Positions 8,091 through 38,485 of a stretch of 64,000 nucleotides of DNA are shown here, in pieces. The notes beneath the pieces are model-generated. The model had not been told where the DNA came from, did not search any database, and saw only the letters and a program-made list of their open reading frames with translations. The position numbers and the translations under genes are program-made. Origin of the DNA: an uncultured Clostridia bacterium (GTDB taxonomy: Bacteria > Bacillota > Clostridia > Oscillospirales > Oscillospiraceae); assembly GCA_947649615.1 (NCBI GenBank), contig CANSSG010000002.1, positions 1 to 64,000 on the forward strand. The letters run 5' to 3'. How positions within the stretch are numbered: the stretch's first letter is position 1; every line of letters begins with the position of its first letter.

Positions 8091-10046
8091 TTACCAATCG
8101 TCATAGTTTTTACCGAGCCCGGAACGCACCTTTTTAGTCCTGGCGCGGGGCACAGCAGGAACCGCTGGCGGCTTTGCAACAGCCACTGGCGGGCATTGGC
8201 CGCGCATGGCTTTAAGCTGCCTGTCAATAGCGTCCAGGTCTTTAGGCAAAGCCTTGAACGCAGCCATGGCATAGTTACGGCAGTCAAGGGCCTCGTTGCG
8301 CTCATGGCCGGGAATCTTCTTCCATACCCAAGGCTGCTTTTTGCTCGCGTCATATTCCAGCCGCTCAGACAGCAGACCGGCGAAATAGCTGGAGCCATAA
8401 TCGTCCCGGTGCGGGAAATGACAGTAGTTGGGGCCAGGCGTCTGAACGCGCAGATTATCCATAATCCGCTGCTTCCCGGCGTCGACGCCAATCTCATACA
8501 TCCAGCACGTCCCGATATACTGCTCTTTAATCATGATTTTTTGCTCCTTGGGTGGTTTCGTATAGGGGGCGTTATGGTCTTTTGAGCCCATAATCGCGAA
8601 CACCTTTTTACGGATTCGGTCATGGCACGCCAGCCGAACCTCGCCGGAGAAGTGGCCGGCCTGGTCCACAAAGGTCAACGATACCGGCAGGCCCAGCCCG
8701 TCAGCAAAGCGAAATACCCGGTTAAACAGAACCTCGTCCAGTTTAGCCCAGGTCGCTGGATCATCGGGCCTCCCCATGACGATACCCTTTTCAATCCCCC
8801 AGGTTTCTCCGAAGTGTCCATGTCCGACGACCTCATATTCCATCCGGTTGTCCTGAGTGTCCACACCGGCCGTCAGCACCAGCACACCGTCAGGCAGCTC
8901 AACGGGCGTGCCGCCCTCTTCCAGTCCGTAGGCCTCCACATCACGCCGCCCCATCAGACTGTCCTCGTCCTCTATGTCTCCGCGATCTTCCCACAACTCA
9001 CCAAAACGGGTGTTATAGACAACTTGAAGGCTTTTGGAATCTCCAATCGCATACAGATACTCAAGAATAGAAGATTCCCACGAAGCCCACGGGCTTACAA
9101 ATGAATTGAGCCAAAAGGAGCGAACACCGCGTTTATATGCGTCTGGATTATCAGCAATCCATTTGGCTGGCTGCTTTTTCATCTGGCGCTCTGTTGATAT
9201 GCACGAACACTCAGGGCAGATGTAATAGATATCCGATACCTCGTACTGCTTTTCTTTCTGGACGATTTTTTCAGTTGCCGTGTATCGGATATTTGAGAAA
9301 TGAATATCGTGGTATCCGCCGCAGTGCGGACATTTTACACACCATCTCTCCATCGTTCCTTCTGCAAAAGAACGTGCTATTTTGCTGGCATTTTTAATTG
9401 TAGGTGTTGAGACTTCAACTGCTTTTGAGTTATAGAACGTGATTTGCCGAGCTGTGGCCAGTTTCCACGGATCGCCTTCATTACCAGCAGATGCCGCCCA
9501 GCGATCCCGTTCGTCACCAAAAACGTATCGACAGGGAGTGGAAGCGAGGTCATCAGGGACATTGGTTCCACACATTATCAGCATTCCACCTGGAAAAGAT
9601 TTGCGTAGTAGTGTGTTTCCGCTGTCACGGCTCTTGGCCTTTGATACTTTTGAACGCAATACGCTACATTCTTGAATCAATGGACCAACGCGCACTTGCG
9701 AAAACTTTTTTGCATCGTCAATATCTGGATGGATATACAGAATATTTCCAGGGTCTTGATGGATAATGTAACCAATACAGTTCAGCTCGAACTCCGATTT
9801 ACCTACCTGCGATGAAGCAACCATGACAATCCTTCGTACTTTTGGGTCAGTAAAGGCATTCATCAGCTCCCTAAGATACGGCGTCCGGTTTGTACGCCAT
9901 GGGCCTGGTTCCGCTGCGCTTCGCGGCAATCGCCGGTATTTATCCGCCCACTCTGTTACGGTTAAATTTTCTGGCGGATTCATACCCGCCAGCACTTTGG
10001 CCACCACAGAATTAAGACGGGCAGTGTTAGAGCTATTCATCGTCAT
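8091..10046 (-). CDS. Terminase large subunit, lambda gpA family
   Basis: The 651-residue packaging motor matches the GpA family (PF05876): N-terminal LTVTEWADKYRRLPRSAAEP, ATP-binding ASSQVGKSE at residues 77-85, Walker B-like YVFGDERDRW, four cysteines in two CPHC/CPEC pairs (zinc-binding segment) and a nuclease region starting LTAGVDTQDNRMEYEVVG. It cuts cos sites and pumps DNA into the prohead. It overlaps the small-subunit gene by 14 bases. The portion 9000-9750 is visibly more AT-rich than the flanks, hinting at recombination inside the gene. Confidence 0.93.
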   Translation of the reverse strand: MTMNSSNTARLNSVVAKVLAGMNPPENLTVTEWADKYRRLPRSAAEPGPWRTNRTPYLRELMNAFTDPKVRRIVMVASSQVGKSEFELNCIGYIIHQDPGNILYIHPDIDDAKKFSQVRVGPLIQECSVLRSKVSKAKSRDSGNTLLRKSFPGGMLIMCGTNVPDDLASTPCRYVFGDERDRWAASAGNEGDPWKLATARQITFYNSKAVEVSTPTIKNASKIARSFAEGTMERWCVKCPHCGGYHDIHFSNIRYTATEKIVQKEKQYEVSDIYYICPECSCISTERQMKKQPAKWIADNPDAYKRGVRSFWLNSFVSPWASWESSILEYLYAIGDSKSLQVVYNTRFGELWEDRGDIEDEDSLMGRRDVEAYGLEEGGTPVELPDGVLVLTAGVDTQDNRMEYEVVGHGHFGETWGIEKGIVMGRPDDPATWAKLDEVLFNRVFRFADGLGLPVSLTFVDQAGHFSGEVRLACHDRIRKKVFAIMGSKDHNAPYTKPPKEQKIMIKEQYIGTCWMYEIGVDAGKQRIMDNLRVQTPGPNYCHFPHRDDYGSSYFAGLLSERLEYDASKKQPWVWKKIPGHERNEALDCRNYAMAAFKALPKDLDAIDRQLKAMRGQCPPVAVAKPPAVPAVPRARTKKVRSGLGKNYDDW

Positions 10047-10593
10047 CCGCCCAATTTGTTTCCCAATTCATCCGGCCACGTACACGCTCCTCATACCTCT
10101 TTGGGTCGTAGCGATAGTGAGACAGCTCGCTCATAACCGCATATACCTCTCGGCGGATAATTTCAGAAGCCTCGGCAGGTGTCTGCGCATCGACCACATC
10201 TACTGCCAACCGCCCGGGTAGCGCCATTAGTGAGCTGCGGATTGTGTAAATCAAGTCCTCGGTCAGAGCAGCCACATCTTCGCTGCGGTGCATTTTCCCC
10301 TGTAGTTCATCAGCTTCCAGCTTTGCAATTTTCGCCTTGGAAGATTTGAGCGTTACATCAGCCGCTTGACGTGCCTTTTCTAGCCGTTGTTCTTCTGCGC
10401 TTCTTGCATCTTCCTTGGATTGGGATTTGACATACCGCTGGACAGATTCACAAAGGAGGAACCGGCCTTTTGAAACTTTTTCTAACTGCCCATCTTCTGC
10501 CAGTTGCCGGATATATCGCCCAGTTATGCCAAGAACACAGGCCAGCTCAGTTGTGCTGACCTCTGTTTCGGGCGTAATTTTTGTGTTCGACAC
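10033..10593 (-). CDS. Terminase small subunit, lambda Nu1-like
   Basis: The 186-residue protein begins with a winged-helix DNA-binding part (VSTTELACVLGITGRYIRQL, then GRFLLCESVQRYVK) followed by a helical dimerisation part rich in Lys/Glu, with LSHYRYDPKRYEERVRGR near the end. This is the layout of Nu1 (PF07471), which recognises the cos site and recruits the large subunit. Its position directly after a non-coding stretch that could hold cos supports the call. Confidence 0.88.
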   Translation of the reverse strand: MSNTKITPETEVSTTELACVLGITGRYIRQLAEDGQLEKVSKGRFLLCESVQRYVKSQSKEDARSAEEQRLEKARQAADVTLKSSKAKIAKLEADELQGKMHRSEDVAALTEDLIYTIRSSLMALPGRLAVDVVDAQTPAEASEIIRREVYAVMSELSHYRYDPKRYEERVRGRMNWETNWADDDE

Positions 10594-10864
10594 GGCCGCT
10601 CACTCCTTCCCCGTAGCACTACCAAAAGCGGAACGGAAATGTCACGAAAAATTTTTTACTAACTAATCGTTATTTGGGGTCGGCGAGCCCGCAGCTAACG
10701 GGATCCCCCTGTCACAGTACCTTTTCCGCTCGCCGTCGCTGTTCGCGTTGCAATGGCCTTTCCTGGGACTTTACGGCTCGGGCAAGGGAACGCCCAAGGC
10801 AAGCACAGAAGCCTCCCTGCGCGGCTCTCTGCGCCTGTCTTGGGCATTGTAGCTTGTCGCTCGC
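10594..10864. other. Non-coding gap upstream of terminase, candidate cos region
   Basis: No convincing gene is present in these 271 bases. At about 10676-10694 the plus strand reads GGGGTCGGCGAGCCCGCAG, which resembles the lambda cosN core (GGGGCGGCGACCTCGCGGG) with one inserted base and a few changes. It is followed by an imperfect inverted repeat and GC-rich sequence. In lambda-like phages cos lies directly before the small-subunit gene, as here. The similarity is visible by eye only. Confidence 0.4.
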
Positions 10865-11389
10865 TTAGAGCTTGGTCAACAGCTCCGCATGACTGTACCC
10901 TTTGACACCCTTGGTCATCATGGTCAGGAAGTCATCACGGGAGAAATCCGACAGGCGGAACACTTCCTCTGGGCGCATACCCAGCTGACGCCCTATCTCT
11001 TGTACCGTCTTACCATCATCCAGCAATCTCTTGACGATGGCTTTCATCGGCTCCAGCAGATGTGTGCCGCGAGCGCGGTTGTGTGTGACGGTGCCGTAGA
11101 TGTCCTCGGATGCGTCCTCGTGGCGCACCACTACAACAGGTACTTTGCCGCCGAGCTTGGTGTGCAATGGTTCCTCTCCCGCTACGGTCCAGCGGTGGAA
11201 GCCGTCGATGATGGTGTAATCAGGGCGCACCACGATGGGCAGCGTCCAGCCGTTGGTCATGATGGATTGCACCAGCAGCTTTAGGTTTTCCCGGTTGACC
11301 TTGTTGGGGTTGTAGTCATTGGGCCTGAGTGTGTCCCGGTCTACCCATTGCAGTGAGGACAGAGGGGCGAACAGATCCACATCAGCCAT
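10865..11389 (-). CDS. ParB/Srx-like protein, IbrB/YbdM-like
   Basis: The likely start is ATG 11387-11389 (MADVDLFAPLSSLQWVDRD), preceded by GGGGGTGAGG; it gives 174 residues. The core LRPNDYNPNKVNRENLKLL, IVVRPDYTIIDGFHRW and KVPVVVVRH is the ParB/sulfiredoxin-like N-terminal domain, followed by a helical segment (TVQEIGRQLGMRPEEVFRL) that looks like an HTH. It overlaps the upstream DUF3440 gene by 8 bases. In enterobacteria, IbrB/YbdM is likewise encoded beside IbrA/YbdN. The activity is unknown; ParB folds may bind CTP or act as nucleases. Confidence 0.8.
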   Translation of the reverse strand: MADVDLFAPLSSLQWVDRDTLRPNDYNPNKVNRENLKLLVQSIMTNGWTLPIVVRPDYTIIDGFHRWTVAGEEPLHTKLGGKVPVVVVRHEDASEDIYGTVTHNRARGTHLLEPMKAIVKRLLDDGKTVQEIGRQLGMRPEEVFRLSDFSRDDFLTMMTKGVKGYSHAELLTKL

Positions 11390-12536
11390 TTGCCTCACCC
11401 CCTTTGCGGAAGTTTTTGGCGTAGGCTGCATAGGCGCAGGATATGTCTTGGTAGATGGCGCGGAGGGTGCGGAGCTTGGGGTCACCAGCTACCAGCCCCC
11501 CGTACATCTTTCGGTAGTCCCGGGGACGGGCCATGCCGTCCATGCGGATAAACAGCTTGCGGTACTGCTTGGCCACGTCCCTCTTGTGGGGGGTGTTGAA
11601 AAAATCGCCCGGCCGGAGGAACAACATCTCTTTCAGCAGGGCGCGGTAGTCCTTTTTGTCCTCACCCTCCAGCTCCCGCCGCTTTTTGGTCGTGCGGTGG
11701 AACATCTCACTGTCCCAATACATCACGGCCAGGTATGCGTTTGGTTCCCGGCGCAGTACGCGTTCCATCAGCTGAGGATCGTACTCACCCAGGTGGACCA
11801 GCACCGGCACCGTGTCCACGGAGAAGAACTGCGACACCCGCAGCTGGTTCCTGTTGACGCCCACTTGGTACATCTGCAGGTAGACCTCCGGGATGTCGAT
11901 GTGCTGATCGCGGAGATACAGCCAGACATCAGTGGTTTTCCAGTCGTAAATGGGATAGATGGTGTTGGTGTTGGTGATCCCCTTCGCGCCCATGTTCAGC
12001 GCAGCCATGTACTGGAGGCGCTGAATGGATTCCGCCGCCCGGACTCCGGTTATCATGATGCCGTCCATAGTCACCCGGGGGAGGAACGATTGGTAGTTGT
12101 CCACCCGGGCGCGGAGCTGGGGATGGTTGCGGATGGCAAAGGGCGGGGGCTGCCGTACCCAGACATCCCGCTTCCGGCTGTCCCAGCAAACGAAGGTTTC
12201 ATCGCTGGACAGCTCATTGAGGCAGTTGAAGTGCTTGACCTCGATGCACCACCAGTTAAACTTGGCGCCGGCCAGCAGGAATTTCTTCCTCCACAGTTTT
12301 GTGGTGGCCTCTATGCAATCGAAAATGGCTTCCTCGTCAATGAAAAGGACGGTCAGTAGGGATGGGTCGATCTCCCCGGCCTGGATCAGCTGGTAGGTCA
12401 GGTGAGCGAGCACGATGCTGTCTTTCCCCCCGGAGAATGAGAGGTAGACCGGGACGCCGTTGGAGAACACATTCTTGATGCGCTGCTTGGCCGCTGTCAC
12501 TACGTCGATGTTGGATTGGACACGCTTTACAGCCAT
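11382..12536 (-). CDS. PAPS-reductase-like protein with DUF3440, IbrA/YbdN-like
   Basis: The 384-residue protein has the ATP-pyrophosphatase loop FSGGKDSIVLAHL at residues about 34-46, then LFIDEEAIFDC, and TGVRAAESIQRLQY typical of PAPS-reductase-fold adenylating enzymes. The C-terminal half matches DUF3440 (IYPIYDWKTTDVWLYL, ISCAYAAYAKNFRKGG). Related proteins are IbrA/YbdN. Such enzymes use ATP or sulfonucleotides; no substrate is established here. The start overlaps the stop of the ParB-zinc-ribbon gene, and its end overlaps the IbrB-like gene, so it is the middle of a coupled operon. Confidence 0.82.
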   Translation of the reverse strand: MAVKRVQSNIDVVTAAKQRIKNVFSNGVPVYLSFSGGKDSIVLAHLTYQLIQAGEIDPSLLTVLFIDEEAIFDCIEATTKLWRKKFLLAGAKFNWWCIEVKHFNCLNELSSDETFVCWDSRKRDVWVRQPPPFAIRNHPQLRARVDNYQSFLPRVTMDGIMITGVRAAESIQRLQYMAALNMGAKGITNTNTIYPIYDWKTTDVWLYLRDQHIDIPEVYLQMYQVGVNRNQLRVSQFFSVDTVPVLVHLGEYDPQLMERVLRREPNAYLAVMYWDSEMFHRTTKKRRELEGEDKKDYRALLKEMLFLRPGDFFNTPHKRDVAKQYRKLFIRMDGMARPRDYRKMYGGLVAGDPKLRTLRAIYQDISCAYAAYAKNFRKGGEANG

Positions 12537-13135
12537 ATCTGCTCACCACATTTCGGGCAGAGGACAAACCGGCCGCCCTGCTCCGCTTGCTGGGGCTGCT
12601 CGCCGGTGGCCGATGGGGTGCAGTCCTCCGCGCGGGCGGCTGCCGCAGTTTCTCGGGCCTCGTACCGCTGGCCGGTTTCCCGGATTTCCTCGGCCCGCTC
12701 CGGGTCGATGGTGCCGTATTCACTGAGGGCGGCGCTGGCCTCGTCTGCCTCCATGACCATGGCCCGGAGTAAATCTTCCTCAAAGCCGGGGATATCCAGG
12801 TCGTCTTTCAGCTCCAACACGAGAGCATCCAGCGCGGCCAGATCGTCAACGCCCAGGTCAAACACCCGGTTATCGGCCAACATGAGCTTTTTCTTCTGGG
12901 CCTCCGTCAGCCCGGACACAACATAGCAGTCCGCTTCGGTGTGTCCCATGGAGAGCAGCGTTTCAAACAGGCCGTTTCCGGCTAGGATGGTGCCGCCCTC
13001 GTCGACCACGATGGGGCGAATCTGGCCGAACATCTCCACGGAGCGCCGGAACTCCTTCAGCTGCTTGTCGGTGTGCATCCGCACATTCCGCTCCGGGGGG
13101 TGCAACTCGGTCAGGGGCTTCTTTGTCACTTTCAT
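12527..13135 (-). CDS. ParB-like protein with C-terminal zinc ribbon
   Basis: The 202-residue product starts MKVTKKPLTELHPPERNVRM and contains VEMFGQIRPIVVDEGGTILA, the ParB N-terminal domain with a GNGLFE segment in place of the usual GxxR box. A helical middle (LTEAQKKKLMLADNRV) is followed by an Ala/Glu-rich linker and a final CPKCGEQIWL, half of a zinc ribbon. Its ATG overlaps the upstream stop (ATGA, 13132-13135). This gene and the preceding PAPS-reductase-like gene form a second ParB/PAPSR pair in the same operon. Confidence 0.78.
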   Translation of the reverse strand: MKVTKKPLTELHPPERNVRMHTDKQLKEFRRSVEMFGQIRPIVVDEGGTILAGNGLFETLLSMGHTEADCYVVSGLTEAQKKKLMLADNRVFDLGVDDLAALDALVLELKDDLDIPGFEEDLLRAMVMEADEASAALSEYGTIDPERAEEIRETGQRYEARETAAAARAEDCTPSATGEQPQQAEQGGRFVLCPKCGEQIWL

Positions 13136-13914
13136 GCCCTCACCCCCTCCAGGAACGCCCGGGCGCTCACAATCTTCTCCGCAGCAGCGGTGACGATGGA
13201 GGGGTCAATGTCATAGACCTCGCGCCAGCCATTTTCGGTGCTGCCCGTCCATTGGCGGGCGGGCCAGGGGTGAGTGCCGCACAGATAGCCGTTCTTCCAC
13301 CCATAGATGGGCGGGAGCGGGAGCTGATGGTAATGGATATAGGCCAGGACGTGCTCATGGCTCCAGGCCGCGAGTGGGCTAAACCGGGTTACGCCCTTTC
13401 CGTCCGTGTAGATATTGCTGCCCCGGCCAACGAAGTTCCCGTCTGCCCGGCGGCGGCCCAGGATGATGACGTCCAGCTCATGGGCTTTGAAGTATTCGCG
13501 CTGCGCCCGGTGCTGGACGATGGAGAACCAGCGCCCCGCCGTGGCCGATTCCTGGGGGAACAGCATTTCGGGGTGTTTGGCCAGCCAGTCCAGGCCCTGG
13601 TGTGTGTTGATGACCTCGCAGCCCGCTGGCTTGTTGGCCTGCACCCAGGCGGCAAAAGCCGGGTACTCCAGATCACACACGCCGATCATGCTGTCGGTGA
13701 CACCGGCGACCTCGCAGACGTGGCCGAGAACGATACTGTCTTTTCCAGCGCTCCAGGCGTAGGCAGCCCTCTTGCCCTCCATAGTGGCCCGAATATCCTC
13801 CACCGTGGCGGCAGTCAGTTCGTCCAGCTGCTCCCGAGAAATAGCGTCCTCAATGGTTGCAACAGCGTCCAGCCATGCTTTATTGTCAATGCGCTGTTTA
13901 CGCCCAAGGCTCAT
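13132..13914 (-). CDS. PAPS-reductase-like ATP-pyrophosphatase family protein
   Basis: ATG 13912-13914 (MSLGRKQRIDNKAWL) overlaps the symporter stop as ATGA, giving 260 residues. The nucleotide loop reads AWSAGKDSIVLGHVC, with Ala for the usual Gly of SGGKDS. Later motifs are VCDLEYPAFAAWVQ, EYFKAHELDVIILGRRRADG, TRFSPLAAWSHEHVLAYI and LCGTHPWPARQW. These fit the PAPS reductase/ATP sulfurylase small-subunit superfamily. The C-terminal redox cysteine motif of true PAPS reductases is not evident, so an adenylating or sulfur-transfer role is more likely than sulfate reduction. Confidence 0.8.
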   Translation of the reverse strand: MSLGRKQRIDNKAWLDAVATIEDAISREQLDELTAATVEDIRATMEGKRAAYAWSAGKDSIVLGHVCEVAGVTDSMIGVCDLEYPAFAAWVQANKPAGCEVINTHQGLDWLAKHPEMLFPQESATAGRWFSIVQHRAQREYFKAHELDVIILGRRRADGNFVGRGSNIYTDGKGVTRFSPLAAWSHEHVLAYIHYHQLPLPPIYGWKNGYLCGTHPWPARQWTGSTENGWREVYDIDPSIVTAAAEKIVSARAFLEGVRA

Positions 13915-15287
13915 ACCGCACACGCCCCCTTCCTGGGAGCGGTCATCATGCAGATGGCGCCGGAGAGCAGCAGCGCACACAAGCTGCCAGCGGTTTTCAT
14001 AGCTGCGCTGCCGGTGACGGTGCCAATAACAAAAATCGGCATCCCGATAACGAGTGACGCCACGATCCCCGCCGTCACTCCGCCTGCTGATAACGATTTT
14101 CCTTTCAGCGTCAGCACAGTAGGCAACATGGTCGTAGCTCGCAGCGCACCGTAAATCAGGAACAGGTCAGTCACCGCCAGACCGGGGATATTGGCAATGA
14201 CGATGGCCAGCACCAGGAGCGCCAGCATGGAGCCTTTTACCGCGCCCATGCCGCCCCCGAAGTCGTTGGTCAGCGATGCCACTGCGCAAAGGTTACTGTC
14301 AGTGGTGGAGAGAAGCCCGGAGATCACCATGAACAGGAAGGGCAACATCACCCACTCAGGGAACATGCTGGACACCAGCTCGAAGTTCACCATACCCGCA
14401 TCCTGGGCAACGTAGCCAGAGCCGGCCGCGATGAAACCGAGAACGCCCATGGAGAACGGTACCACAGCAAAGAACAGCGCCCCCAGCTGGAACGCCCCGC
14501 CGATTTTGTCCTCGCGGATGGAGAACGCCCGCTGCCAGAAGCATTGATCCCCGAACGGGGCGGCAATCAGACCGACCGCCGTGGGCACTCCAAAGGCCAG
14601 AAGCACCTCCAGGCCCTTTTTGTTGAACAGGCTGGTGTACTCCCCGGACTGTCCCGCAAGCCCCGTGACGAGGCTGGATAGGCCGGTATCGCCCGACAGT
14701 GCCCAGGGTACCAGCAGCGCACAGCAGGCGAGCATGAGAACCATCTGGAGCGCATCGGTCAGCACCGACGCCTTGATACCGGAATACTGCGAATAGGAAA
14801 AGGCAATGGCCGCCAGTACGACGGTCAGTGCCCAGAATGGCCAGCCCATCACCGCCGCGAGTATCTTCGCGCCGGCGAGCAGCTGCACCGCCGTGGACAG
14901 GACGGCCAGCGCGGACAGTTCAAACAGATATGCCCCGTGGACGCCCTTGGAGTGATACCGCTGCTGCATATAGCCGGATAGCGTGATCCCCTCCGGGGCC
15001 TGGGTGCGCATCCGCTTCCCGAACGGAACGAATATCAGCAGACACAGCACGTTCGGCACCAGGAACCAGAACAGGCCGGGCAGACCGTTGGTATATGCCT
15101 TTTCCGCCGAAGTGAAAAGCGCAGGAGCCCAGATCCATGTGGCCGCTATGCTCATGGCGCTTTGGATCAGGCCGAGCTTCCTGTCGGCAACGTGGAAGCT
15201 CTCGGTGTTGTGCGACCGCTGCGAGAGGCAGATGGTGACAATGACCATCAGCACCGCATACGCCGCCAGTACGATGAAGCCGTACAT
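13911..15287 (-). CDS. Sodium:solute symporter family transporter on a prophage
   Basis: The start is ATG 15285-15287 (MYGFIVLAAYAVLMVIVT) with AAGGAGGAAAC upstream; this gives 458 residues with about twelve hydrophobic segments. SSS-family features include FHVADRKLGLIQSAMSIAAT near the first loop, FSYSQYSGIKASVLTDALQM, PFGDQCFWQRAFSIRED and SGLLSTTDSNLCAVASL. These proteins couple Na+ entry to uptake of sugars, amino acids or other small solutes; the substrate cannot be read from sequence. It heads the coupled PAPSR/ParB operon, which is unusual for phage cargo and suggests that it supplies a substrate for those enzymes. Confidence 0.85.
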   Translation of the reverse strand: MYGFIVLAAYAVLMVIVTICLSQRSHNTESFHVADRKLGLIQSAMSIAATWIWAPALFTSAEKAYTNGLPGLFWFLVPNVLCLLIFVPFGKRMRTQAPEGITLSGYMQQRYHSKGVHGAYLFELSALAVLSTAVQLLAGAKILAAVMGWPFWALTVVLAAIAFSYSQYSGIKASVLTDALQMVLMLACCALLVPWALSGDTGLSSLVTGLAGQSGEYTSLFNKKGLEVLLAFGVPTAVGLIAAPFGDQCFWQRAFSIREDKIGGAFQLGALFFAVVPFSMGVLGFIAAGSGYVAQDAGMVNFELVSSMFPEWVMLPFLFMVISGLLSTTDSNLCAVASLTNDFGGGMGAVKGSMLALLVLAIVIANIPGLAVTDLFLIYGALRATTMLPTVLTLKGKSLSAGGVTAGIVASLVIGMPIFVIGTVTGSAAMKTAGSLCALLLSGAICMMTAPRKGACAV

Positions 15288-15413
15288 TTTGGGTTTCCTC
15301 CTTATTCGTGTTGTGCGACCGCTGCGGGATATTGGCGGTACCGCCGCCCGGTGCATAGCCACCGCGCCAGGAGAAAAGAACGCGGGGCCTATACCCTCCT
15401 TTCCCAAAAGAAT

Positions 15414-15439
15414 GGCGGCCCTCCCAAGAGAGGACCGCC
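15414..15439 (-). terminator. Intrinsic terminator between late regulator and symporter operon
   Basis: Arms 15414-15423 and 15430-15439 give a 10-bp stem with one G-U pair and a six-base loop. On the minus strand the hairpin is followed by ATTCTTTT. It would end or attenuate transcripts reading from the ArpU-like gene into the symporter operon. Confidence 0.6.
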
Positions 15440-15492
15440 TGGCTTGATTTAGGATTTTACCAGCTTACCATAGCACATTGTCGAGCGGAATA

Positions 15493-15912
15493 TCAAGCGT
15501 CATCGCGCGTCACGCCGTTGCAACTTTCGAGGAATCGGTAACAGGCAGACTTGACACTGTTTTCGGAGTTCCTGCCGCCCACCACATCCGCAACCTCTTT
15601 CCATGTGAGCGCATAGAGGAAACGGAGCCGGATAATCATGCGGATATGGTCATCTTCGATACCATCAGCGAACTCGGTAATAGAGGCCTGCGCCTTTTTG
15701 CACTCCCCCTCCAGGCGGGCGATACGCGCTTTCAGATCGGCAATCTCCACAGCAAGATCGCCCACCTTATCGCTCACACCGGGAGCGTGGGGCATTCCAG
15801 TAAGTACCTGCGCACCGGGGCAAGCTGCTGCCTGGAGAGAGGCCAGCATTTCCTTTGCTCTGGCCAGCCGCTCCCTCATAGTAAAATGTCGATTTAATTC
15901 TTGCAAAGTCAA
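15493..15912 (-). CDS. Phage late transcription regulator, DUF1492/ArpU-like sigma-related protein
   Basis: The 139-residue protein has a coiled-coil N-terminal half (LAVEIADLKARIARLEGECK) and a C-terminal sigma region 4-like HTH: DDHIRMIIRLRFLYALTWKE, VADVVGGRNSENSVKSACYR. This layout is that of DUF1492/ArpU-type regulators that sit at the end of early operons and activate the packaging and lysis genes. The likely start is TTG 15910-15912 behind GGGGGTGAGC; an ATG at 15879 is the alternative. A late promoter would be expected just downstream, before the symporter or the terminase genes. Confidence 0.78.
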   Translation of the reverse strand: MTLQELNRHFTMRERLARAKEMLASLQAAACPGAQVLTGMPHAPGVSDKVGDLAVEIADLKARIARLEGECKKAQASITEFADGIEDDHIRMIIRLRFLYALTWKEVADVVGGRNSENSVKSACYRFLESCNGVTRDDA

Positions 15913-15934
15913 TTAGCTCACCCCCGCGCACAGA

Positions 15935-16192
15935 TTATCTCTTTTTGCGAAACCCTCTGGCCTGGGGGCAAGTGCTGAAATGGGAGATGTACCCGAAGCC
16001 GGTCAGCTCGTCACGCGGTCCCTCGAAGTCACAGCTCACAACCTTGCCGCTCCGCTGGAGGACCACCTTTCCAGCAGCCCCGGGCCGCTCCCAGTAGGGC
16101 ACCAGCCGTGGATCACATGGCATACTCTTTCCAGCTGCGGTCTTGACCCATACGATTTCAGCGCCGCATCCGCGACATACCCCTGTCGGCAT
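15935..16192 (-). CDS. Small zinc-ribbon phage protein
   Basis: ATG 16190-16192 (MPTGVCRGCGAEIVWVKTAA) follows GGAGGGAAAG and gives 85 residues. The N-terminal CRGC pair, a second CDP motif and FSTCPQARGFRKKR suggest a small metal-binding protein. Similar short proteins are common in Firmicutes prophages just before the late regulator. No function is known. It overlaps the preceding gene by 35 bases. Confidence 0.65.
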   Translation of the reverse strand: MPTGVCRGCGAEIVWVKTAAGKSMPCDPRLVPYWERPGAAGKVVLQRSGKVVSCDFEGPRDELTGFGYISHFSTCPQARGFRKKR

Positions 16193-18091: not shown

Positions 18092-19486
18092 TTAGCAGGG
18101 GCCTCCGGCTGCACCATGAAATGCCCCGGCAGGTAGCGCCCAGTTTGTTTTCTTCACATCTGCCTTGAAAAAACTACCACTGACAAGTTGATAAAGCGCA
18201 AGCGGGTCATCGTGGCAGACACAGCTCTCTGCGCTGCCAACGTACTCAGCCAGTGGGCGTTTATTATCAAGAGTGAACCCCAAGATGCGTTCATCTTCTT
18301 CCACCGCAGCAAACCGTTCGGGAAATAGTTCCCGGATGCCGGCCCAATGGGTAGGCAGACTGAAAATACACATCATACAGGAACAACGGTTCCATCCAGC
18401 CGCATAACATGGGTGCGGTGCAATTTGGTGTCGCCGGATAATATCCCACACTTGCGCCTCGTCCCAATCAATGACGCTGCGCCATTGATGAACCAGCCGG
18501 TGTGCCTTGGCCGTGGCGTTGGTGCGGTGGATCTCCATCTCGTTGTACTTGGCCCGTCCGGCGCTCTCCTGGCGGCGTTCACCAGAAATCACCAGAATCT
18601 TTACATCCTGGACAAGCCCGTCAATATCAGAGTAGAGCTTGCTCTCCACCTGGGCCTTGAGGGAACCAGAGCACCAGCGGCCCTGATGGCATCCAGACTT
18701 GGCAGGGAATTTCAGGCGATGGCCGTCCGCTTTCAGCGTATCCATATTTCGGAGCAAGCTGTCAGCGACCTCACGCTTAAGATTGGGGCTGCAGTAGCGC
18801 CCGTTGGCAATGGACCCCTTCGCCGGAAATTTCCGACAGTCCCCCATGGCCTTCAGGTCCTCCAGCGCCATGTTGCGGATCACCGAATCGGCCACTGTGA
18901 TCTTTAGGATAGAACTGCACCACCGGGTAGCGAGGTCGCCACTCTTGGCCGGAAACTTCATTCGGTGCCCCATTCCCTCCAATTCCTCTCGTTCCAGATC
19001 GTCCAAGATTTTTTCTCGGAGCTGGGCAGAGCGGACTTGCTTTTCCGACTGCCTACATTCCAAAACTTCCCCGGTGGCCGGGTCTATGTACCGGATAGGC
19101 CAGCTGGCACCGATACGATACACCTCGCCCCAGAATCCATTCACCCGCCAAGACACCCGCAGAGTGATCCCCAGATACTCAGCCACAGCCCGGACGTAAT
19201 TCTGCGTCACGGGCCAATCCATCTTTCGGGTCGGGTGTCCCCCGTCGATGTCGTGATGCCACAGCTCCATTTTTTCTTTCGGGACTCCCCGTTCCAGCAA
19301 ATCCAGAACACAAGCCAGGCTATCTTTTCCACCAGAAAACAGGATGATTATTTTGTCATAGTCTTCAAATGGAAGTAATTGCTCCAGGCAAATTGAAGCC
19401 ATGTGTGATGTGTCCTGCCGTCCTGGGATTATAGGAATTTGGCCTACTCCGCTCCCGAACGAAACCCTTCTGTTTGCTCCCATCAT
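18092..19486 (-). CDS. PAPS-reductase/DndC-like protein with triplicated KFPAK-WCSxxLK unit
   Basis: The 464-residue protein starts at ATG 19486, coupled to the upstream stop; Met29 is an alternative start. The nucleotide loop is ILFSGGKDSLACVLD (residues 48-62), followed by HHDIDGGHPTRKMDWPVT. Residues 171-290 hold three tandem units with KFPAK at 177, 219 and 259 and R(W/Y)CS at 188, 230 and 270, each followed by LK and a V-ad-S-like helix. Single copies of a C-S/C-x-x-L-K motif are normal near the active site of PAPS-reductase-fold enzymes, so triplication is odd. Later parts contain LVISGERRQESAGRAKYNEM and C-rich NRCSCMMCIFSLP, which may bind a metal or an iron-sulfur cluster. Confidence 0.82.
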   Translation of the reverse strand: MMGANRRVSFGSGVGQIPIIPGRQDTSHMASICLEQLLPFEDYDKIIILFSGGKDSLACVLDLLERGVPKEKMELWHHDIDGGHPTRKMDWPVTQNYVRAVAEYLGITLRVSWRVNGFWGEVYRIGASWPIRYIDPATGEVLECRQSEKQVRSAQLREKILDDLEREELEGMGHRMKFPAKSGDLATRWCSSILKITVADSVIRNMALEDLKAMGDCRKFPAKGSIANGRYCSPNLKREVADSLLRNMDTLKADGHRLKFPAKSGCHQGRWCSGSLKAQVESKLYSDIDGLVQDVKILVISGERRQESAGRAKYNEMEIHRTNATAKAHRLVHQWRSVIDWDEAQVWDIIRRHQIAPHPCYAAGWNRCSCMMCIFSLPTHWAGIRELFPERFAAVEEDERILGFTLDNKRPLAEYVGSAESCVCHDDPLALYQLVSGSFFKADVKKTNWALPAGAFHGAAGGPC

Positions 19487-19656
19487 CCCAAAACCCTTTC
19501 CATCGCTTTATGATAAGCGTCCAGCTCGCTAGCCCCTTTGGGGGCTTCCGCTCCACAGTGGAGGCAGATGTACCGATATGTCAGGTCAGGCGGGAACTGG
19601 GGCGATAGGGTCAGCAGCGTCATATCGTGGGCGCAGTAGGGACACTTCGGTTTCAT
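19483..19656 (-). CDS. Small zinc-finger protein, Lar-like (restriction alleviation family)
   Basis: ATG 19654-19656 (MKPKCPYCAHDMTLLTLS) follows GGAGGGGCAGCC and gives 57 residues. It has CPYC and a second CLHCG pair, then GASELDAYHKAMERV, the layout of the Lar/restriction-alleviation family (CPFCG...CxxCG...A...WN). Such phage proteins are annotated as anti-restriction, but few are tested. It is coupled to the downstream PAPS-reductase-like gene. Confidence 0.6.
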   Translation of the reverse strand: MKPKCPYCAHDMTLLTLSPQFPPDLTYRYICLHCGAEAPKGASELDAYHKAMERVLG

Positions 19657-20093
19657 AGGCTGCCCCTCCATTCCCAAAGCCCTTGCATCCCTTTCACTGG
19701 TACTGGCGAATCAGCAGCGATTCTCACATGGAAATCCCATGCGTACCGCCCCAGGGTAAAGTCACCCAGGGCCAGCTCCATCGGTGTGAGCTTTGCCACA
19801 AAAGCCTCCGTAATGAGGTTGCAACGGGTCAGAATCGCCGTTCCCACGATAGCCCCGGTAGGTAACTTGTCCAGCTCCCCGGGCCGCATGAACAGGCTCT
19901 CAAAGTAGTCCAGCGTGAGCCACCCGTCCCCACGGTCAGCAACCAGCGCGTCAATGGTTTGCCGCACTGGCCGCTTGGCCGCATGAATGGCGATGGGACC
20001 GCGATAGGAGGTGGCCCAACTGCGGGTTTCGTACCGCTTCCGGCCAGATAGCAGCAGGGAGGCCCAGGGCTGCCAGATGGTGAGGGCCTTCAT
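19653..20093 (-). CDS. ASCH-domain protein
   Basis: The 146-residue product matches the ASCH fold: MKALTIWQPWASLLLSGRKR, YETRSW, GPIAIHAAKRP and, later, GAIVGTAILTRC and ALGDFTLGRYAWDFH. The opening xLTIxQPWAxLLxxGxKxxExR is diagnostic. ASCH domains bind RNA or modified nucleosides, and one branch hydrolyses N4-acetylcytidine. It is coupled (ATGA) to the Lar-like gene and precedes the PAPS-reductase-like gene, so a nucleotide or modified-base role for the trio is possible. Confidence 0.8.
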   Translation of the reverse strand: MKALTIWQPWASLLLSGRKRYETRSWATSYRGPIAIHAAKRPVRQTIDALVADRGDGWLTLDYFESLFMRPGELDKLPTGAIVGTAILTRCNLITEAFVAKLTPMELALGDFTLGRYAWDFHVRIAADSPVPVKGMQGLWEWRGSL

Positions 20094-21017: not shown

Positions 21018-21363
21018 TCTGGCCACCACCTTCCCCATGCAAGATTTTCTCGCCGGTGGCTTTAAGTGTGGGCATCATCTTCTCCTGCTTCCGCTTGATT
21101 CTCTCCAACTCCTGCTCATACTTGCGGAGCGTCTTGCGATTGAACTTTTTGGCGTGGCCCATGCGGATCTGCGCCTGCACCGCCGTCCTCCGGCCTACCA
21201 GTTCCCGCATCTCTTTATCCGAGGTGAACACATGATACCGCTCCCCACAGGCCGGACAGGAAAAATACTGCACCACGAAATCGCCCTCGCGGATGGAGCT
21301 GAAGCGTTGCTTGTCCAGCATGAACTCCCGCCCACACTTATTACAGATTGTGGTCTCATTCAT
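21010..21363 (-). CDS. Zinc-ribbon phage protein
   Basis: The 117-residue product starts at ATG 21361-21363 (MNETTICNKCGREFMLDKQR), overlapping the ParB-like gene by 8 bases. CNKCG and a second CPACG pair form a zinc ribbon, followed by a basic helical segment (MGHAKKFNRKTLRKYEQELE). It may bind nucleic acid or accompany the ParB-like protein; there is no direct evidence. Confidence 0.65.
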   Translation of the reverse strand: MNETTICNKCGREFMLDKQRFSSIREGDFVVQYFSCPACGERYHVFTSDKEMRELVGRRTAVQAQIRMGHAKKFNRKTLRKYEQELERIKRKQEKMMPTLKATGEKILHGEGGGQNA

Positions 21364-23077
21364 TCTGACCCGCCTCCTTATCCTCCTGGGCCGCAGGTTT
21401 CCCCTCGCGGAACAGCTCATGCGTCCCATCCTGCAAAGCCTTTTCCTCGTCGGACATTTCATAGCCCAAATCAGTGAGCCGGTGATAAAGGAAATCCAAC
21501 GCCTCATTGGCCTCATAGTCCAGATGGTAGCCGTACTGCCCATTCTCCATCCGCCAGTTTTTCTGATAGTAGGACAGTCTCTCGTAATCAACAGAGGCAT
21601 AGGCGGTAGCCAGCAGCGTGTACTCCGGTCGCTCGGTCAAGGCAATGTTGTACGCCTCCATATCCAACCCCTCGTTCTCCAAGTCACACGCGATATCCAG
21701 AAGATTGACCAAAATCTCAAAATCCACATTATCGGTTATTTCGCACATAGCAAGGCCGGCAAACTGGATGATTAGAGGAAGATTCTTTTTCGCCTTAGAA
21801 TAATTCTTGATGAAATCCAAGCGCAGCGCATAGGCATCCGCTGACAGTTTTTTAAGGGCAGCCTCGCGGCGCTCTAACTCCCGCTTTTGGCGTTCCTGTT
21901 CTTCCTTGGCCGCAGTATCCTCGCTGGTTTCAATGTTTTCACGGTAGAGCGACACAGCCCGGCTACTCACAGTGTAGTAATATTTCGTTGTATCTGCGTC
22001 CTCCCGCCGCTCCACCTTTTTCTTCCTGTTCCAAGGCTCATAGCCAGTCACATACTGCATTACGGAGCGGTCCACAGTATCTATCAGTGTCGCAAACTCA
22101 GATAGTGCCGCTGAAACCTCGGCAATATATTTGCGGTCTTTTTCCTCGTCGATAGCACTTTTTAGTGTCATGCGGAAATTATTGGTGCCAATAGCGTCCA
22201 GCACCTTGTTTTTCAGCTCGGGGTCCTCGATTTTCTCCAGCTCCGCATAGTCCTGAAGCATGGCCCCGCGCTCAACGGAGGCCTTGAACTTCTGCTGATC
22301 CAGTTCCAGCAGTTTCACCCGGCGCCGGACGGTGGATTGGGAGAAGCCAGCTTTCTTGGCAATGACCTCCACAGTGTCCCCCAGGTCAAGCATCATCTGG
22401 AAGCCCTGGGCCTGCTCATACACGGTCAGGTCGGCCCGCTGAATGTTCTCCATAAGCATGGTGCGTACCTGCTCCCGGTAGTCCATATTGGAGATGACAC
22501 AGGGAACCTCAGCCAGACCGGCCAGCTTTGCAGCAGCGAGACGGCGGTGGCCGATGACCACCCGGAACAGGCCCTCCCCGTTCGTGGGCTGGTTGGCAGT
22601 AATGCGATTCATGAGGTTGCGTACTTCCTCGGTGGGGTGCTCCTGGTACTGCTTAGACAATGCGGACCACTCCGCCGCTTCGGATTCCAGCGACACAACA
22701 GTGAGATTCTGGAGGATACCGTTGGCCTTGATACTGTCGGCCAGCTCCTGCAGATCGCCCAAATCCTTACGGGGGTTATCCGGGTGTGTGAGCAGCTTAT
22801 CCACGGGCAGCAGCACCAAGGAGCCGGTGTCCCCTTGGACGACCACAAGCTCCACGTCCTGGGGCGCAGCAGGGGCGGACGTGCCGGCCAACACGCTTGG
22901 CGCAGACATCCGCGCCTCCCACTCGGCCTCCATCGCTTCCACTTGATCCTGGATTTCCGCGCCCGGTCTCGCGTTGCCCTGATAATAGACACAATCACGC
23001 TCACAGAACTTGTGATCACATTTCTTCCGTCCGCACTCGCCCTGCAACGGACAGCGGTCATTGATTTCTTTCTTCAT
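21356..23077 (-). CDS. Large ParB-like protein with Cys-rich N-terminus
   Basis: The 573-residue protein begins with a cysteine-rich segment (CPLQGECGRKKCDHKFCERD, probably metal-binding). The ParB N-terminal domain follows: LLPVDKLLTHPDNPRKDLGD, DLQELADSIKANGILQNLTV, then VVIGHRRLAAAKLAGLAEVP with the GHRR box, and the HTH AKKAGFSQSTVRRRVKLLEL. The C-terminal 300 residues are charged and helical, ending near the zinc-ribbon gene. Phage ParB-like proteins may act in DNA binding, CTP hydrolysis or nuclease functions; no partner ParA is present, so plasmid-like partition is unlikely. It is the third ParB-domain protein of this prophage. Confidence 0.85.
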   Translation of the reverse strand: MKKEINDRCPLQGECGRKKCDHKFCERDCVYYQGNARPGAEIQDQVEAMEAEWEARMSAPSVLAGTSAPAAPQDVELVVVQGDTGSLVLLPVDKLLTHPDNPRKDLGDLQELADSIKANGILQNLTVVSLESEAAEWSALSKQYQEHPTEEVRNLMNRITANQPTNGEGLFRVVIGHRRLAAAKLAGLAEVPCVISNMDYREQVRTMLMENIQRADLTVYEQAQGFQMMLDLGDTVEVIAKKAGFSQSTVRRRVKLLELDQQKFKASVERGAMLQDYAELEKIEDPELKNKVLDAIGTNNFRMTLKSAIDEEKDRKYIAEVSAALSEFATLIDTVDRSVMQYVTGYEPWNRKKKVERREDADTTKYYYTVSSRAVSLYRENIETSEDTAAKEEQERQKRELERREAALKKLSADAYALRLDFIKNYSKAKKNLPLIIQFAGLAMCEITDNVDFEILVNLLDIACDLENEGLDMEAYNIALTERPEYTLLATAYASVDYERLSYYQKNWRMENGQYGYHLDYEANEALDFLYHRLTDLGYEMSDEEKALQDGTHELFREGKPAAQEDKEAGQNE

Positions 23078-35200: not shown

Positions 35201-35839
35201 ATGGAACGTCTAAAAGCACTCAGAACCCAACGCGGACTACTCCAAAAGGAAGTCGCCGAAAAAATTGGCGTTGATAGAACCACATATGTAAAATATGAAA
35301 AAGGCTCCAGCGACCCAAATTTTGAAATCCTTCAGCGTTTAGCCGACTATTTTAACGTAACAGTTGACTATCTCCTTGGATACAAAGGCCGTAGCGAGAT
35401 GTCAGACCTCTTTAAACATTCCTTGCGCAAAGCTCTTGAAAGGATTGATAATTATGGGGATTTGACAGAACCAGAAGCAAAAGCAGACTATACAGAAGCA
35501 ATGGGTTATGCCGAATCTCAATATGTTTTGACTATTGATGAAATATTCCGTGCTTCGGATATCGTTGGAGAAAGCATTGATGACATGCTTTCTGAGGATT
35601 TTAAGCCTGGAATGCGTGAAGGTATAAAAGAATCCCCCGATGAGGAAAAAACCGCATCGGAGGATTTGATGAATGAGCAGATTATGACTTTTGTGAGGAA
35701 ACTGCCGGAGGAGCAGAAAATTCTTCTTCTGTCACTCCTTCAGACAACAGTCGAACGAAATCAAGGTATGCTTCCTTCTGTTCAGATGTCAACATCTGGA
35801 GAAGGCACAAAATTTGAGCGTCAATATCGGACATGGTAA
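35201..35839 (+). CDS. Phage repressor, XRE family
   Basis: The 212-residue protein starts with an XRE HTH (MERLKALRTQRGLLQKEVAE, KIGVDRTTYVKYEKGSSDPN, FEILQRLADYFNVTVDYLLG). The rest is helical and acidic, with no LexA/CI-type self-cleaving Ser-Lys domain visible, so induction may need another factor such as an ImmA-type protease, which is not seen nearby. GGAGG lies upstream of the ATG. It is transcribed away from the Cro-like gene across four operators. Confidence 0.85.
   Translation: MERLKALRTQRGLLQKEVAEKIGVDRTTYVKYEKGSSDPNFEILQRLADYFNVTVDYLLGYKGRSEMSDLFKHSLRKALERIDNYGDLTEPEAKADYTEAMGYAESQYVLTIDEIFRASDIVGESIDDMLSEDFKPGMREGIKESPDEEKTASEDLMNEQIMTFVRKLPEEQKILLLSLLQTTVERNQGMLPSVQMSTSGEGTKFERQYRTW
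35682..35834 (-). CDS. Possible small antisense gene overlapping the repressor 3' end
   Basis: ATG 35832-35834 on the minus strand has GGAAAGGA at good spacing and opens a 50-codon frame: MSDIDAQILCLLQMLTSEQK, EAYLDFVRLLSEGVTEEEFS. This is protein-like and resembles the LTxEQKxxxLxFVRxLxE tails of XRE regulators. It lies completely opposite to the repressor coding sequence. It may be real, or a coincidence of complementary helical codons. Confidence 0.35.
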   Translation of the reverse strand: MSDIDAQILCLLQMLTSEQKEAYLDFVRLLSEGVTEEEFSAPPAVSSQKS

Positions 35840-37063: not shown

Positions 37064-37194
37064 TCGCGCGTGCGCGCGCGACGCGCCTATACTACTCTCT
37101 ATTTCTATCCCTATACTGAGGCTATACTAAACTCTAAATCTACAATCTATCTTAGGAAATCTATCAGTAGAAGTACAGCGGCCGCAAAATCAAA

Positions 37195-37230
37195 AAACCG
37201 CCCCCGGTGCTACCAACACCAGGAGCGGTT
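37195..37230 (-). terminator. Terminator-like hairpin in the int leader
   Basis: Arms 37196-37201/37225-37230 and 37204-37209/37217-37223 make a long stem with a bulge. On the minus strand TTTTTTGATTTT follows; on the plus strand only AAAAAGG. It probably stops leftward-reading transcripts, for example from the host side, before the lysogeny module. Confidence 0.5.
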
Positions 37231-37297
37231 AAAAAGGGCAGCAGGCTTGGACGGCTCCACTGCCCTCCTATCATATCAGAGATTGGGGGGAATATCA

Positions 37298-38485
37298 ATG
37301 GCCAGACCAAAAAAACCAACGTATGAGTATGTCGAGAGATTGGGCAGGTACCGCAAGCGGATCAAGGACGCCGATGGAAACTATGTTGCCATCTATGGGA
37401 GAACACCAGAGGAATTGACGGAAAAGCTGGCTGAAGCCCAGCACCAAATCGACGAGGCCCTATTCCGGCGGGACAATCCAACGGTTGAGGACTACGCCAC
37501 CAAATGGCTGACCATGCACAGCTCCCATATCAGAACGACTACCCTTGTCGATTACACGTCCAAAGTCAAAATCTATATCATTGAGCCGCTGGGAAAGAAG
37601 TACATGGCCGAGATCACCCCGGATGATGTGAAGCTGGCCATTACCAAAGCCGCCCAGCAGTCGGCCTCCATCTATCGCGGCGTTCAGATGCTCTACAAGA
37701 TGATTTTTTCTTCGGCAGTGGAAAGCGGAATTATCGACAAATCCCCATGTGAAAATATCAATCCCAGGGGCGGGAAAGAGCCGAAGGGAAAAACCGCTCT
37801 CACCGATCAGCAGGTCGGCATCCTTTTAGATGCGGTTCAGGGTCTCCCCCCATACCCGTTCATTATGCTATGTCTCTATGCTGGCCTGCGCCGGGAGGAA
37901 GCTCTGGCATTACAATGGGATAGCGTTTTCTTATCGGACAAAGCTCCTTATATCACAGTGCAACGGGCATGGCACACGGAGCACAACAGACCGGTTATCC
38001 TGGATGATCTGAAAACCAAAGCCTCCAGGAGAAACATTCCCATTCCACCACAGCTTGTGGAATGCCTGAAAGCCATCAAAGCGAAATCTACTTCCGATTT
38101 CGTGATTTCCAATCGGGACGGCGGAGCCCTCTCGGAAACCCAGTGGCGTCGGGTATGGGGGTATGTGCGTACCCGCACCGTCAGGGAGCGAACCTACCAC
38201 CGATATATCAACGGTCAAAAGATCTCACGCACCATAACCCCTGTCCTGGGAGAACGCGCTGCACACAATGGTAATGTGGTATATAGCATCGACTTTGAGG
38301 TAACTCCCCATCAGCTTCGGCATACTTACATCACAAATCTATTGCTGGCTGGTGTTGATGTAAAGACCGTTCAATATCTGGCTGGTCATGAACATGCAAA
38401 GATCACGCTGGACATTTATGCTCACCTGACGTATAACAGGCCGGAGGATTTAGCAGACAAGGTTAATCGTGCGTTTTCGGGTTAA
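37298..38485 (+). CDS. int: Tyrosine-type site-specific integrase
   Basis: ATG 37298 (MARPKKPTYEYVERLGRYRK) follows GGGGGG and gives 395 residues. The N-terminal part is an AP2-like arm-binding domain, then a SAM-like core-binding domain (VEDYATKWLTMHSSHIRTTT), and the catalytic domain has Arg in LYAGLRREEALAL, HQLRHT (H-x-x-R), the GHEHAK box and the tyrosine in TLDIYAHL. All catalytic residues are present. It integrates the prophage, with one end expected just after the gene. Confidence 0.93.
   Translation: MARPKKPTYEYVERLGRYRKRIKDADGNYVAIYGRTPEELTEKLAEAQHQIDEALFRRDNPTVEDYATKWLTMHSSHIRTTTLVDYTSKVKIYIIEPLGKKYMAEITPDDVKLAITKAAQQSASIYRGVQMLYKMIFSSAVESGIIDKSPCENINPRGGKEPKGKTALTDQQVGILLDAVQGLPPYPFIMLCLYAGLRREEALALQWDSVFLSDKAPYITVQRAWHTEHNRPVILDDLKTKASRRNIPIPPQLVECLKAIKAKSTSDFVISNRDGGALSETQWRRVWGYVRTRTVRERTYHRYINGQKISRTITPVLGERAAHNGNVVYSIDFEVTPHQLRHTYITNLLLAGVDVKTVQYLAGHEHAKITLDIYAHLTYNRPEDLADKVNRAFSG

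Follow-up and report, generated by a model that had tools for sequence, protein, structure and literature searches.

We analysed a stretch of 64,000 nucleotides from an uncultured bacterium of the Oscillospiraceae (contig CANSSG010000002.1, positions 1 to 64,000; hereafter the window), which holds a prophage with a block of five overlapping minus-strand genes: a sodium/solute symporter, two PP-loop ATP-pyrophosphatases resembling 3'-phosphoadenosine 5'-phosphosulfate (PAPS) reductases (PAPSR-A and PAPSR-B) and two ParB-like proteins (ParB-A and ParB-B). With a probability of roughly 70%, we predict that the block is one functional unit, a cassette for base modification of phage DNA that is equipped with its own precursor importer. 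The block recurs in gut phages at a place where their relatives carry DNA-modifying enzymes; therefore, it probably imports a small molecule and attaches it to the phage's own DNA, and its position in this slot is the best clue to its function. The genes of the block, in the order of transcription, are:

13911..15287, minus strand: symporter (Na+/solute, SSS/SLC5-like), ATG start, 458 amino acids, first gene of the block
13132..13914, minus strand: PAPSR-A, a PAPS-reductase-like PP-loop ATP-pyrophosphatase, ATG start, 260 amino acids, an optional member
12527..13135, minus strand: ParB-A, a ParB-like domain with a C-terminal CPxCGExIWL tail, 202 amino acids
11382..12536, minus strand: PAPSR-B, an IbrA-like PP-loop ATP-pyrophosphatase, 384 amino acids
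10865..11389, minus strand: ParB-B, an IbrB-like ParB fold with predicted DNA-binding helices, ATG start, 174 amino acids, the most conserved member

Two alternative starts were rejected: a GTG at 13980 for PAPSR-A lies upstream of the conserved ATG, and for ParB-B, where a GTG would give 206 amino acids, the conserved start is also ATG. A preliminary description of this region had proposed that overlaps of 4-10 bases, with two ATGA junctions, tie the five genes together, and the window sequence agrees: successive overlaps are 4, 4, 10 and 8 bases, the 4-base overlaps being ATGA at 13914-13911 (symporter/PAPSR-A) and at 13135-13132 (PAPSR-A/ParB-A). The same gene order was sought elsewhere. 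A scan of IMG/VR with the symporter yielded 147 confirmed stretches (the best 80 loci were kept), so that this transporter is not the rare phage cargo it had been taken for, and GTDB, scanned with a single genome for each species, yielded 75 in 74 loci. All five genes in order were present in 101 of the 154 symporter loci, while 26 lacked only PAPSR-A, 11 had a partial block and 16 the symporter alone. The partial loci include one with an internal deletion that leaves the symporter, PAPSR-A and ParB-B (L042; L numbers are our locus labels) and one with a deletion into the terminase (L085); the symporter-only loci proved on inspection to be loci cut off by a contig end, truncated copies (L139, L147) or distant homologues from bacteria. 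Dereplication at 90% symporter identity reduced the 133 loci that have three or more of the genes to 83 clusters, each counted by its most complete member: 57 had five genes, 23 had four (PAPSR-A absent) and three were incomplete, two stopping at a contig end (L088, L102) and one disrupted (L108). The order was fixed in 80 of the 83 and no other gene order occurred; with 83 dereplicated loci, chance adjacency or an assembly artefact was rejected.

Junctions were counted without dereplication. The overlap is kept in 97 of 106 loci for symporter/PAPSR-A, in 130 of 131 for ParB-A/PAPSR-B (exactly 10 bases in 129), in 118 of 127 for PAPSR-B/ParB-B and, where PAPSR-A is missing, in 23 of 31 for symporter/ParB-A, but in just 36 of 103 for PAPSR-A/ParB-A, which is not generally conserved. 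It had been argued that a functional unit would be unlikely if these genes never co-occurred elsewhere or if their overlaps were not conserved; the genes do co-occur and three of the four overlaps are mostly conserved, the PAPSR-A/ParB-A junction being the part that did not hold. The ratio of non-synonymous to synonymous substitution rates was 0.04-0.26 for all five genes in every pair computed with the window (nine loci, among which L001/L082, L003/L083 and L039/L099 give identical values and probably represent the same phages twice); purifying selection acts on all five genes.

The block lies between the late regulator and the terminase, as described before, with the following flanks in the window:

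15493..15912, minus strand: late regulator, outside the block (phrog_36 transcriptional regulator, 35 bits; phrog_248 activator, 22 bits)
10033..10593, minus strand: terminase small subunit (phrog_57, 96 bits)
8091..10046, minus strand: terminase large subunit (TerL), an open reading frame scoring 1198 bits with a TerL profile built from the window and its relatives

The terminase downstream of the block belongs to one of at least two types. For a census of the pre-terminase slot, two TerL proteins from block-carrying phages served as queries, relatives were fetched irrespective of the block, and a locus was counted if 4.2 kb or more of sequence was available ahead of TerL (24 of 60 of the window type; 46 of 80 of the second type, these 80 being the best of 430 confirmed stretches). 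Ahead of the window-type terminase, the slot held the block in 11 loci, a DNA methyltransferase in eight, a generic PAPSR-ParB pair in one and none of these in four. Ahead of the second type it held the block in 25 loci, a C5 methylase in five, a TET-associated glycosyltransferase (TAGT) in five (one with WbqC), a transglycosylase with QueT in two and with YhhQ/Vut_1 in one, Mom in one, an N6/N4 plus a C5 methylase in one, and none in six. In total, 36 of the 70 loci carried the block, 23 a DNA-modification gene, one a generic IbrAB pair and ten none, and not one carried both block and modification gene (after dereplication into 54 clusters: block 27, modification 16, none nine, generic one, mixed one). 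Downstream of TerL, no modification gene was found in any of the 70 loci (276 kb readable against 378 kb upstream; at least 4 kb in 47 loci).

Slot genes were named by Pfam and PHROG for a sample only, with Pfam E-values of 1.5e-31 for QueT, 3.5e-41 for Vut_1, 2e-44 for Mom, 3e-45 for the C5 methylase, 3e-64 for WbqC, and 4e-10 and 2e-6 for TAGT. The sampled methylases comprise C5 methylases and N6_N4_Mtase proteins with an N-terminal ParB_N-like or ParB-A-like domain; ParB_N exceeds its cut-off in L310 only, and the ParB-A profile scores 180 bits in the slot methyltransferase of L283. The transglycosylase phrog_887 occurs in three slots (L366, L386, L387), and phrog_620 is the best match of the slot ParBs in L356, L366 and L387, as it is of ParB-A in the window. 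Slot cassettes thus consist of a ParB and a base-modifying enzyme, joined in three loci by a precursor transporter, which is the same composition as that of the block, where a ParB of the phrog_620/498 kind sits beside a predicted PP-loop modifying enzyme. In position, the block is thus equivalent to known DNA-modification cassettes.

The three slots in which a transporter accompanies ParB and transglycosylase (L366:4841-6505, L386:3097-4523 and L387:3932-6465; QueT or Vut_1/YhhQ, the QueT of L386 resting on a one-sequence profile made here, 80 bits) are apparent cases of salvage-type 7-deazaguanine DNA modification in phages; passages of PMC6884629 describe YhhQ as a preQ0 transporter encoded by some phages. 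Two other slots combine ParB and TAGT with WbqC (L317:4215-5599) or with a decarboxylase-like protein (L320:3219-5064; our own reading, without a PHROG hit) and possibly represent further DNA hypermodification sets. Among the ten loci with none of the sought genes, a ParB is present in L351, a methylase match below the threshold (28 bits) in L354, and ParB-B-like remnants in L267 and L371.

The census also bears on the idea that the block is cargo for lysogenic conversion or superinfection exclusion, the symporter altering host nutrition and the enzymes making a nucleotide product harmful to other phages. A symporter is an obvious fitness gene and PHROG places PAPSR under moron/auxiliary metabolism; however, the block sits behind the regulator and ahead of the terminase in two terminase lineages and excludes DNA-modification genes from its slot, and we consider this explanation quite improbable. 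The earlier term cargo, if taken to mean a chance passenger, is less well supported: the block heads the late genes and alternates with DNA-modification cassettes.

A second large family of the block was recognised from Faecalibacterium phage Taranis, in which ParB-A, PAPSR-B and ParB-B occur with the terminase and are preceded by an activator annotated as RinA-like and a 333-amino-acid membrane protein; the family comprises relatives of this protein and of the Taranis PAPSR-B (for the latter, the best 80 of 249 confirmed stretches). Either the symporter or the shorter protein is present in 79 of the 89 loci that were fetched with these two proteins and examined, and the ten without either start at most 181 nt from a contig end. 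Profile comparison (hhalign) links the two transporters with 93.6% probability (E 2e-7, 203 columns), suggesting that the short protein is most likely a reduced SSS relative; against solved structures it had no match at E<=0.1. We used the transporter type to follow the inheritance of the block on trees of 31 loci whose TerL matches the window-type profile (dereplicated from 63; 500 shuffles). It changes three times on the PAPSR-B tree and three times on the ParB-B tree (shuffled mean 10.5, minimum 6), compared with nine changes for TerL, where shuffling gave a mean of 10.6 and a minimum of 6, although TerL is close to ParB-B and the transporter lies at the opposite end of the block. Because transporter type tracks PAPSR-B and ParB-B and not the nearby TerL, the block is inherited as one unit across phage backbones.

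The symporter reaches the Pfam gathering score of SSF (PF00474; 70.6 against 22.8 bits) and matches phrog_20720 with 551 bits. The best solved relatives of its profile are the urea-proton symporter DUR3 (E 2e-28) and the choline transporter SLC5A7 (8e-24), from which it differs in being phage-borne and part of an operon. S327 and T328, each conserved in 42 of 43 alignment rows, are presumably the Ser/Thr pair of the Na2 site, and transport would be Na+-coupled. A 22-nt direct repeat (95%) flanks the start codon (15205-15226 and 15308-15329). On four bacterial, non-phage contigs (L137, L140, L144, L148), a symporter homologue adjoins an Asn_synthase-domain protein without the glutaminase N-terminal Cys and, together with a zinc-ribbon-like membrane protein, forms a separate, uncharacterised gene set. 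The neighbour has only an SGGxDS-type motif and no Pfam hit in two further bacterial loci (L141, L143), is without a Pfam hit in L149, and no such neighbour was seen in L152. Few as these loci are, the company of Asn_synthase-type proteins suggests that the transported solute is a substrate of PP-loop ligases.

Both PP-loop enzymes match PF01507 (PAPS_reduct; PAPSR-A 38 bits, PAPSR-B 49.7 bits), and PAPSR-B matches phrog_2302 with 295 bits. The SxGKD residues of the PP-loop are invariant in 44 rows for PAPSR-A (S55, G57, K58, D59) and in 43 rows for PAPSR-B, which points to catalysis in both. In one locus from Eubacterium plexicaudatum (L124:10343-14794), an insert of ~3.6 kb splits PAPSR-A, the remaining block genes being present. 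Going by the family name, the enzymes could serve sulfate assimilation as true PAPS reductases and thus auxiliary metabolism. This was rejected and is hardly credible: both score far under the curated cut-offs for CysH, CysD and PAPS/APS reductase (for the CysH/PAPS reductase model NF002537, 26.8 and 20.6 bits for PAPSR-A and PAPSR-B against 154), and their linkage to two ParBs is fixed.

Sulfur might instead be placed on the DNA backbone or bases (Dnd/Ssp/TtuA-like), the symporter serving a sulfur compound. In favour of this count the family of both enzymes, the partial matches of PAPSR-B to BrxP (41 bits) and DndC (33 bits) in a PADLOC scan of the block genes and two neighbours, and the AlphaFold2 model of PAPSR-B (pLDDT 83.7), whose nearest PDB folds in Foldseek are the tRNA thiolase NcsA (top), TilS and FAD synthase (E about 5e-5 to 1e-4). 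However, PAPSR-B misses the cut-off of the curated DndC model (25 against 290.4 bits; no match is listed for PAPSR-A), and a conserved cysteine cluster is absent from the alignments of both enzymes, each with a single Cys column at >=90%, whereas sulfur-transferring relatives, DndC included, need several conserved cysteines for an iron-sulfur cluster. The titles of PDB entries 6scy and 5mkp mention a [4Fe-4S] cluster. DndC-type phosphorothioation was dropped as first choice because of the missed cut-off and the lack of a cysteine cluster, and DNA sulfur modification as a whole appears improbable. The PAPSR-B model is nearest, with low TM-scores, to the tRNA base-modifying PP-loop enzymes NcsA and TilS, which is consistent with base modification.

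ParB-A, without a Pfam hit at E<=0.001, is best matched by the ParB-like phrog_620 (158 bits) and also matches the DNA methyltransferase N-domain of phrog_498 (104 bits); it further matches the N-terminal part of PADLOC MTase_II (residues 8-147 of 436; 62 bits), Cys193 and Cys196 are invariant in 36 rows, and no solved structure matched at E<=0.01. ParB-B contains ParB_N (PF02195) and matches phrog_2159 (238 bits), and its AlphaFold2 model (pLDDT 77.9) matches the N-terminal and DNA-binding domains of Noc/ParB/KorB. One enzyme-ParB pair had been likened to IbrA/IbrB, with DUF3440 in the enzyme; the likeness stands for the second pair, as both its proteins are homologous to the annotated IbrA/IbrB of phage PhiR5_2 (PAPSR-B 27% identity over 74% of the query, ParB-B 37% over 86%; both E 3e-21), while DUF3440 was not found in PAPSR-B, where Pfam gave PF01507 alone at E<=0.001. 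This homology, the annotation of the Taranis copies as co-activators and the resemblance of the modelled ParB-B to DNA-binding proteins would fit a regulatory role, in which the pair would co-activate genes of the phage or of its host, with the symporter sensing or providing a co-factor. We regard regulation as rather unlikely: the invariant PP-loop in both enzymes suggests catalysis, regulation needs neither a second enzyme nor a transporter, the slot alternates with DNA-modifying enzymes, and IbrAB itself could act through DNA modification.

For the base-modification cassette, the following course of events might be envisaged. The block, probably expressed late, would supply a symporter that imports a small precursor, probably an amine, an amino acid or a urea/choline-like solute; the PP-loop enzymes (PAPSR-B always, PAPSR-A optionally) would adenylate the precursor or a base carbonyl with ATP and then join the two; ParB-A would act as a partner protein of the kind found with DNA-modification enzymes in this slot, and ParB-B, through its ParB-fold nucleotide- and DNA-binding parts, would serve to load the enzyme onto phage DNA or to gate it there. 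A modified base would result, present on the phage DNA before packaging and guarding it against restriction. A more specific proposal remains tentative, namely an undescribed hypermodification, widespread in phages of gut Clostridia, in which a TilS-like PP-loop ligase joins an imported amine or amino acid to a DNA base with ParB-fold delivery and SSS-type precursor pumps. Among the possibilities first raised for the block, uptake followed by activation through ATP-pyrophosphatases and use on DNA is thus the best supported prediction (slot replacement, co-inheritance, protein families), and host-regulating or anti-phage functions are less supported.

Several observations weigh against base modification. 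IbrAB, the closest named relatives of the second pair, have been annotated as co-activating the expression of prophage genes; the TM-scores of PAPSR-B in Foldseek are low (0.3-0.4); PAPSR-A switches often between present and absent (19 changes on a tree of 77 rows), so that its role would be accessory; and the ParB-A tree follows the transporter type more loosely (5 changes, with a minimum of 5 among the shuffles). Since ten of the 70 census loci lack every gene that was sought, the slot might also be a site for cargo in general. As to the census, its queries came from block-carrying phages, which biases the share of the block upwards, the slot profiles were built partly from loci later counted, and the downstream control fell short of 4 kb in all but 47 loci.

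Among the closest known systems, the phage cassettes of DpdA, a tRNA-guanine transglycosylase (TGT), with QueT or YhhQ share with the block the slot, a phrog_620 ParB, a modifying enzyme and a precursor transporter. However, the block has a PP-loop ATP-pyrophosphatase in place of a transglycosylase, an SSS-type transporter in place of QueT/Vut_1, and a second ParB; a TGT profile from three slot proteins found no DpdA-type TGT in the window at E<=0.001, and the block would resemble Dpd in its working by analogy only. ParB-fused N6/N4 DNA methyltransferases (phrog_498) and the C5 methylase, Mom and TAGT modifiers share the pre-terminase position and a ParB related to ParB-A, whereas the block is without a methyltransferase, Mom or glycosyltransferase domain. 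Dnd, Ssp and BREX-4 phosphorothioation systems (DndC, SspD, BrxP) likewise combine a PAPS_reduct-family enzyme with a ParB-superfamily partner (DndB), from which the block differs by the missed DndC cut-off and the lack of a Cys cluster; DpdB and DndB are named as ParB-superfamily partners of DNA modification in PMC12839542. PAPSR/ParB pairs related to the second pair also occur in Flavobacterium, mycobacterial and Microcystis phages, but with no transporter annotated beside the pair (five records) and in varying gene order. IbrA/IbrB in viral genomes are mentioned in passages of PMC4490671 and PMC8813620, and PMC11318856 files two PAPS reductases (PHROGs 424 and 2302) of Clostridium clostridioforme prophage 14 under host metabolism; a term search of PMC5883640 and PMC13432834 gave no mention of transporter, restriction or modification. 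A description of the cassette was not found in the open-access literature searched, a scope that excludes bioRxiv preprints and most subscription papers. Within this literature, the IbrAB relatives and the families of all parts are known and the architecture parallels that of Dpd cassettes; the five-gene combination with an importer appears to be new.

The structural genes of the window prophage lie on the minus strand; a helix-turn-helix (CI-like) gene is found at 35201 and a tyrosine-integrase-family gene at 37070-38485. Position 1 of the window is the contig start and falls within the structural genes, and the far end of the prophage is probably missing from the window. Upstream of the late regulator, and apart from the block, lie a third PAPS-reductase-like protein (phrog_424) with an ASCH-domain protein (18092-20093, minus strand) and another ParB protein with an HTH_ParB domain (21356-23077, minus strand), the same two domains being present in Taranis gp25. 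The leader of the block contains one further feature:

15414..15439, minus strand: terminator-like hairpin, between the late regulator and the symporter

A promoter-like site precedes this hairpin (15414-15496, minus strand, for both). In 37 of 78 loci, against 0.4 expected from mononucleotide shuffles, the 300 nt before the symporter contain a terminator-like hairpin, mostly 100-190 nt ahead of the start in the loci listed, and such a hairpin also precedes the short transporter in 39 of 58 loci (a count without shuffles or dereplication). The hairpin could be either a conventional terminator or a site of Q-like antitermination. Within 10000-16000, no Rfam family matched up to E 1, and thus no regulatory RNA family was found in or near the block.

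Hosts named in the record titles include Anaerotruncus, Agathobaculum, Flavonifractor, Blautia, Acetatifactor and Treponema; locus L082 is a prophage of Anaerotruncus colihominis DSM 17241. Of 295 genomes from the order to which the window belongs, 17 had a match resembling ParB-B at E<=1e-30 but only five, its own genome included, had one at block level (E below 1e-97), so that the block is sparse within the order. The record of Faecalibacterium phage Pioen carries the block, with a short transporter identical to the Taranis protein (333/333). According to PMC11792537, Pioen is 90.9% identical to Taranis, was induced (strain HTF-238, 40 C) and had its DNA sequenced from particles, with headful packaging predicted; a phage with the block, being inducible and packaged, is thus active.

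Should the base-modification reading hold, a large group of gut phages would possess a pathway of DNA modification, complete with a transporter, that has so far gone unrecognised; this would explain the presence of sodium symporters in phages and give the PAPSR-ParB (IbrAB) pair a testable enzymatic role. The chemistry would be accessible, since an inducible block-carrying phage (Pioen) exists, and the pre-terminase slot would be a hot-spot of interchangeable DNA-modification cassettes that could be used to find more of them.

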